Shown here piece by piece: positions 39,152 through 40,203 of a stretch of 42,352 nucleotides of DNA (position 1 is its first letter; each line of letters starts with the position of its first letter). The position numbers were made by a program, and so were the translations under genes. Location: assembly GCA_905479815.1 (NCBI GenBank), contig CAJQOA010000046.1, positions 1 to 42,352 of the forward strand, given 5' to 3'. The stretch is from an uncultured Psychroserpens sp. Its GTDB lineage: Bacteria; Bacteroidota; Bacteroidia; Flavobacteriales; Flavobacteriaceae. The notes below the pieces were generated by a model. That model saw only the letters and a list, made by a program, of their open reading frames with translations. It made no database searches and was not told the DNA's origin.

Positions 39152-39207
39152 AACTTTCTATTTAAAACTCTAAAGTAATAATATCTTCGGAAATATGACA
39201 ACTTTCA

Positions 39208-39215
39208 TACCTTTG
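39208..39215 (+). promoter_or_regulatory. Candidate -7 element TACCTTTG
   Basis: TAnnTTTG match; supports a start at ATG 39228 rather than 39195. Confidence 0.55.
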
Positions 39216-39227
39216 CAAAAAAAACAA

Positions 39228-39935
39228 ATGAAACAACTACTAACCTTCATTTCCATTCTTACTGTATTAGCATCATGCAAATCTGACCCAAAAGACCAAA
39301 ATGTAACATCTCGTTCAATTTCAAATGAAAGAACAAAAAACATACAAGAAGATGAACAACTTACAGTTGCCCAAGAAATTGGCTTTGCTAACGGGTTAGA
39401 AAATTGGTCTAGTATAAATCAAGTTGACTTCACATTTAACGTAGATAAAGATGGTAGTCATTTTGAACGCTCATGGACTTGGAATCCAAAAACGGATGAT
39501 GTAAAGCTAACCTCTGGAAAAGATATTATTACCTACAATAGAAAATCTATGGATAGTGTCGCATTAAAAGCAGACAGAAGCTTCATTAACGATAAATTTT
39601 GGTTATTAGCGCCTTATCAAATCGTATGGGATGAAGGCACTACAATTTCTGAATCAATAAAAGAAACTGCTCCAATGAGCAAAACCGAACTCAACAAGAT
39701 CACAGTATTGTATTCTAATGAAGGTGGATATACTCCTGGTGATGCTTATGATTTTTACTTTGATGATAGACATGAAGTAAAAGAATGGGTTTTTAGAAAA
39801 GGAAACTCTAAAGAACCTTCAATGATTACTTCTTTTGAAAATTACGGCTATTTCAACGGAATCAAAATTGCACAAGACCACATTAAATCTGAAGGCAACT
39901 GGAAACTCTATTTCACAGCTATCACGATAAAATAA
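39228..39935 (+). CDS. Hypothetical lipoprotein
   Basis: Lipoprotein signal MKQLLTFISILTVLASC; no recognised domain. Confidence 0.65.
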   Translation: MKQLLTFISILTVLASCKSDPKDQNVTSRSISNERTKNIQEDEQLTVAQEIGFANGLENWSSINQVDFTFNVDKDGSHFERSWTWNPKTDDVKLTSGKDIITYNRKSMDSVALKADRSFINDKFWLLAPYQIVWDEGTTISESIKETAPMSKTELNKITVLYSNEGGYTPGDAYDFYFDDRHEVKEWVFRKGNSKEPSMITSFENYGYFNGIKIAQDHIKSEGNWKLYFTAITIK

Positions 39936-39957
39936 GTAATTCTTAAAAAAATATTAA

Positions 39958-40090
39958 AGTTGGCTGTTTCCTGTAATTAAAACATCCAACTATAGACTTA
40001 TGGACGTATATAAAGTATATTAATATTCCGCACTATGCGTCTATATACATTCAAAGCGCTTCATCTACTTAGTTGAAGCGCTTTATTTTT
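39958..40090 (+). ncRNA. Candidate structured small RNA: two hairpins followed by a terminator hairpin (possibly 3'UTR-derived or a kynU leader)
   Basis: P1 39958-39969/39980-39991 (11 of 12 paired); P2 39999-40010/40034-40045 (12 bp with two G.U pairs); P3 terminator 40053-40063/40074-40084 plus T-rich tail; no ORF. Confidence 0.45.
40053..40090 (+). terminator. Rho-independent terminator
   Basis: AAAGCGCTTCA-TCTACTTAGT-TGAAGCGCTTTATTTTTT. Confidence 0.85.
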
Positions 40091-40203
40091 TCTGTTTATT
40101 CTAAAAAAATGCACCTTTCATCACTTTAATTCCTCGTTAATAATCCTTATTTTTATACACATATTCTAATTTTAGAATCACCAATCAACTAAAAAATAAG
40201 ACA

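Follow-up and report, generated by a model that had tools for sequence, protein, structure and literature searches.

A conserved intergenic element of Flavobacteriaceae is probably a small RNA gene with a predicted ECF-type promoter

The gap between a lipoprotein-like gene and kynU in the window (the whole 42,352-nt stretch of Psychroserpens DNA analysed here) contains three consecutive hairpins, the last of them a terminator, and raises the question of whether they belong to a free small RNA, to the 3' UTR of the upstream gene or to an attenuator of kynU. The hairpins are present as proposed in the preliminary description: P1 pairs 39958-39969 with 39980-39991 (11/12 pairs), P2 pairs 39999-40010 with 40034-40045 (12 pairs, including two G.U), and the P3 hairpin (40053-40084) is followed by ATTTTTT (40085-40091); TATAGAC (39991-39997) is also complementary to GTCTATA (40039-40045), as claimed. 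Folded alone and compared with dinucleotide shuffles, P1 (z = -3.9) and P3 (z = -7.1) were clearly above chance in the window sequence, and P2 was marginal (z = -2.1, with 5/200 shuffles equally stable); the 161-nt stretch, folded whole, reached z = -6.2. The search of Rfam release 15 gave nothing at gathering score. The weak match to the L10_leader family (RF00557; 39972-40096, 24.4 bits) was rejected: its score falls well short of the gathering score (44), and a ribosomal-protein gene is absent downstream of the element.

When relatives were searched at the DNA level, almost every genome of the window's genus matched the stretch, most strongly over ~39941-40084, and the kynU start usually formed a separate match several hundred bases off. 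The element was detected in 24/25 Psychroserpens genomes at a score of at least 84 bits by a covariance model of the core (R1), the sole exception showing a 43-bit match only, and in 114/400 sampled Flavobacteriaceae genomes at 50 bits or more; the looser R1 tally (224 genomes at E <= 0.1) takes in chance matches. Hosts known by name include Winogradskyella, Bizionia, Algibacter, Tamlana, Formosa, Maribacter, Zobellia and Arenibacter. The models usually gave one strong match per genome across the family, and a repeat search found the element in single copy in its own genome; the phage records searched contained no match. Nothing convincing was found outside Flavobacteriaceae by a second model, R2 (judged by bit scores, because its E-values were too optimistic), and in the family's largest genus, g147 (presumably Flavobacterium), neither model gave a convincing homologue; the R2 matches of ~40 bits and below in g147 and in other families were, where inspected, plain terminators. 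In the alignment of the 25 genus homologues the core sequence was strongly conserved, but the P1 and P2 helices were not.

The features recognised in the window are the following:
39942-39959, plus strand: A/T-rich block CTTAAAAAAATATTAAAG, retained across most of the genus (25 genus homologues aligned).
39981-39989, plus strand: putative -35 box AACATCCAA, 22-23 nt before CGT in 127 homologues, spacer unconserved.
40005-40012, plus strand: putative -10 box CGTATATA of the CGT type, ~1.3-1.9 bits per position in 127 homologues.
40014-40091, plus strand: predicted small RNA of ~78 nt, from models R1 and R2 across the family, with its start deduced from the -10 box.
40029-40039, plus strand: mini-hairpin CGC-ACTAT-GCG, stem invariant in the aligned homologues.
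40040-40052, plus strand: linker TCTATATACATTC, consensus TCTATATATATTC, most positions holding 1.2-2.0 bits up to TATATATAT (values partly fixed by the search pattern).
40053-40091, plus strand: intrinsic terminator (P3), compensatory change at all 15 pairs.

On this map two of the three hairpins are reinterpreted, since they overlap the predicted promoter boxes. Among the 127 homologues, (A)ACATCCAA stands 22-23 nt ahead of CGTATATA with almost no information in between, and the next conserved block follows CGT at a variable distance (17 to 34 nt). Because two boxes at nearly fixed spacing flank an unconserved spacer, AACATCCAA and CGTATATA appear promoter-like, with an ECF-like -10 box. ECF sigma factors typically use a -10 box with CGT, and here such a box stands at a fixed distance from a -35 box, the arrangement expected of an ECF-sigma-dependent sRNA. 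The promoter motif SM6 of Flavobacterium psychrophilum also has a CGT -10 box and is attributed to ECF sigma factors (PMC9723704). The A/T block CTTAAAAAAATATTAAAG is a possible UP-like or activator site; a similar A/T tract also lies ahead of the promoter of the second RNA described below.

The pattern ATCCAA-N14/15-CGTATATA was found at 110 sites in 72 Flavobacteriaceae genomes (6 sites for the reversed control), a count that overstates the number of promoters and leaves the size of a regulon uncertain because some sites, several of them in other genera, fall in conserved coding sequence. Outside the family (47 genomes) there were 2 sites, versus 4 for the reversed control. A looser promoter pattern was not above its control in the element's own genome alone, and no matching promoter was found upstream of gldN in that genome. 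Matches to the pattern also fall within the reading frame of a gene for an ECF-like sigma factor (L387, L391, L392, L393, L408), probably as a result of coding conservation; in several genomes this sigma gene lies ~10 kb from the element, a suggestive proximity.

The proposal of a compact P1-P2-P3 RNA or switching element did not hold. Covariation was absent from P2 in 100 homologues (65.6% of cells paired, versus 65.1% in shuffles), so that conserved, mutually exclusive helices were not found. P1 was variable among the aligned homologues. P1 and the 5' arm of P2 probably lie outside the transcript, because they overlap the DNA of the promoter boxes. Other registers of P2 (GUAUAUA with UAUAUAU) could be paired in nearly all sequences, both sides being almost invariant, and were uninformative. 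What survives of the three-hairpin structure is P3, a terminator conserved as structure, whereas P1 and P2 are not conserved helices.

The terminator contained 285 double-change cells versus 71 +/- 7 in shuffled data, with 94% versus 78% of cells paired, in an alignment fitted to the terminator stem and thus somewhat favouring it; slid versions were at most 55% paired. The stem ranges from GCGCTTCA-type to GTCCTTCAC-type and is fully compensated. The predicted ~78-nt RNA, with its start placed ~9 nt after the C of CGT, folds at z -5.1 into two hairpins only, and comprises an A/U-rich 5' end, the CGC-loop-GCG hairpin, the linker and the terminator. Covariation cannot back the 3-bp mini-hairpin, because its stem never varies; its four-nt loops were GNRA, UNCG or CUNG in 20/48 cases. 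The near-invariant linker between mini-hairpin and terminator (consensus UCUAUAUAUAU) is a candidate pairing or protein-binding site. Taken as a target motif, the complement of the linker was not clearly over-represented outside the element, and an Hfq gene was not found in the own genome (89% complete). The element contains no open reading frame, its internal distances varying by non-multiples of three among the 127 homologues.

These data also bear on whether the element acts as DNA, as a conserved protein-binding or recombination site, instead of encoding an RNA. The very high conservation of the A/T-rich boxes and the usual single copy per genome would suit such a site, but a same-strand terminator is always found downstream with its stem rebuilt by compensatory change, the hairpin loops include stable RNA tetraloops, the spacing within the body varies, and both upstream boxes recur ahead of unrelated terminator-ended units. 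We regard a DNA site as very unlikely.

The usual gene order in relatives is methyltransferase (-), lipoprotein (+), element (+), Fer4_19/CDGSH gene (-) and kynU (+). Immediately 5' of the element, other genera have msrA or a divergently oriented methyltransferase gene, and in the Maribacter/Zobellia/Arenibacter group the element usually has a divergent kmo on one side and a convergent clpP-like gene on the other. Since the neighbours differ between genera while the element stays, it behaves as a unit of its own, and sequence comparison points to an independent unit that is kept when the flanking genes change. In the window the Fer4_19/CDGSH gene is missing (40092-40203), so kynU adjoins the predicted RNA gene.

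That kynU is the next downstream gene in the window, ~112 nt beyond the terminator, would fit a leader or attenuator of kynU with P1 and P2 as its switch, one of the roles initially considered. This role is extremely improbable: the convergent Fer4_19/CDGSH gene intervenes in most relatives, kynU is located elsewhere in the kmo clade (where the element is not upstream of it), and P2 shows no covariation. A conserved 5' UTR position ahead of kynU was not observed. The upstream side offers a better case, since the lipoprotein gene ends shortly before the element on the same strand, both in the window and in most relatives, making read-through into the terminator likely; the element could then be the 3' UTR and terminator of that gene, perhaps yielding a 3'-UTR-derived sRNA by processing. 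We consider this unlikely, given that the element persists behind other or divergent upstream genes (msrA, methyltransferase, kmo), shows much stronger conservation than the lipoprotein (identity mostly 35-50%) and carries promoter-like boxes. The lipoprotein-like protein (39195-39935) has no Pfam match, and its identity to relatives compares with ~80-90% for its neighbours, as in a fast-evolving gene.

The free sRNA is the initial suggestion that fits a stand-alone conserved unit with promoter-like boxes and a covarying terminator that survives changes of neighbour. The element combines its own promoter (as judged by conservation) and terminator with the lack of an open reading frame and with conservation independent of its neighbours, as expected of an intergenic sRNA. 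The region ~39942-40091 is thus read with good confidence as an sRNA gene, in which an ECF-type sigma promoter would drive a ~78-nt RNA acting through its linker. The boxes AACATCCAA (-35) and CGTATATA (-10) would be recognised by an alternative sigma factor, most probably an ECF one; transcription would start near 40014 and stop at the terminator ending at 40091; the conserved unpaired linker would most likely pair with target mRNAs, or else bind an RNA-binding protein; and the RNA would act under whichever condition activates the sigma factor. A trans-acting sRNA is the most likely form of this reading. We infer transcription from the AACATCCAA/CGTATATA promoter, the ECF-type identity of the sigma factor and the action in trans from patterns of conservation.

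The same -35 and -10 boxes precede other RNA-like units. A second unannotated unit, of ~145 nt, lies in the own genome (G000:C38:33660-33832, minus strand) and at loci L401, L412, L413, L414, L416, L394 and L395. Seven sequences of this unit had a mean column identity of 90%, with invariant boxes and a variable spacer; BLAST found it in ten genera, it has its own strong terminator (AAAATCCTGTCTG/CAGACAGGATTTT), and no Rfam match was found for it. It is flanked by what we take to be a MazG-type pyrophosphohydrolase-like gene and a convergent peroxidase-like gene. A third terminator-ended unit with these boxes occurs in several Psychroserpens genomes (L404, at G022:C4:183000-186700; L399; L415), ~15 kb from the element in G022 and G021. 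In Galbibacter and one further genus, a short terminator-ended unit with the same boxes and a different body (ATCATTACATAGTAGTAGGTATTAGTTTAGGG) is located near the element (L192:316-427 and 733-839; L215; L418). A Flavobacteriaceae-specific sigma factor may run a regulon that includes the 78-nt, the ~145-nt and the third RNA from AACATCCAA-N15-CGTATATA promoters, a tentative proposal to which we give slightly less than an even chance. If true, Bacteroidota would have in this regulon an equivalent of the enterobacterial sigma-E sRNA arm that evolved with other RNAs and, it seems, without Hfq.

Few conserved small RNAs have been described in Flavobacteriaceae, a major marine group, and the element spans many of its genera; the sharply defined shared promoter and the precise predicted start make the sigma factor, the inducing condition and the targets directly testable. 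Of the RNAs already described, Rfp11 of F. psychrophilum (THC0290_N_0107; TSS 182564 in strain OSU THCO2-90) comes closest: it is a conserved, structured sRNA from an intergenic region and is listed under the SM6 CGT-box promoters (PMC9723704). Rfp11 shares with the element the bacterial family, the intergenic position and the CGT -10 box; it is a possible homologue only, judged here from its description, and models R1 and R2 gave no convincing homologue in g147, the presumed Flavobacterium. We take the element to be a new family among sRNAs, a known kind of RNA, and Rfp11 may belong to that wider family. Rfp18 of F. psychrophilum is a conserved sRNA with a demonstrated effect on protease mRNAs; it has at least three stem-loops, the third being the pairing region for metalloprotease mRNAs, and an SM6 promoter is not reported for it in the main text (PMC9723704). 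Rfp18 resembles the element as a conserved sRNA of the same family but fits less well than Rfp11, since it has a third stem-loop and the RNA predicted here has two hairpins only. In enterobacteria, MicA, RybB and MicL are sigma-E-dependent sRNAs. FoxJ is a sigma-E-dependent sRNA of Fusobacterium (PMC11005410). Their likeness to the regulon proposed here is one of proposed logic only, several short sRNAs depending on a single alternative sigma factor, with no sequence relation claimed.
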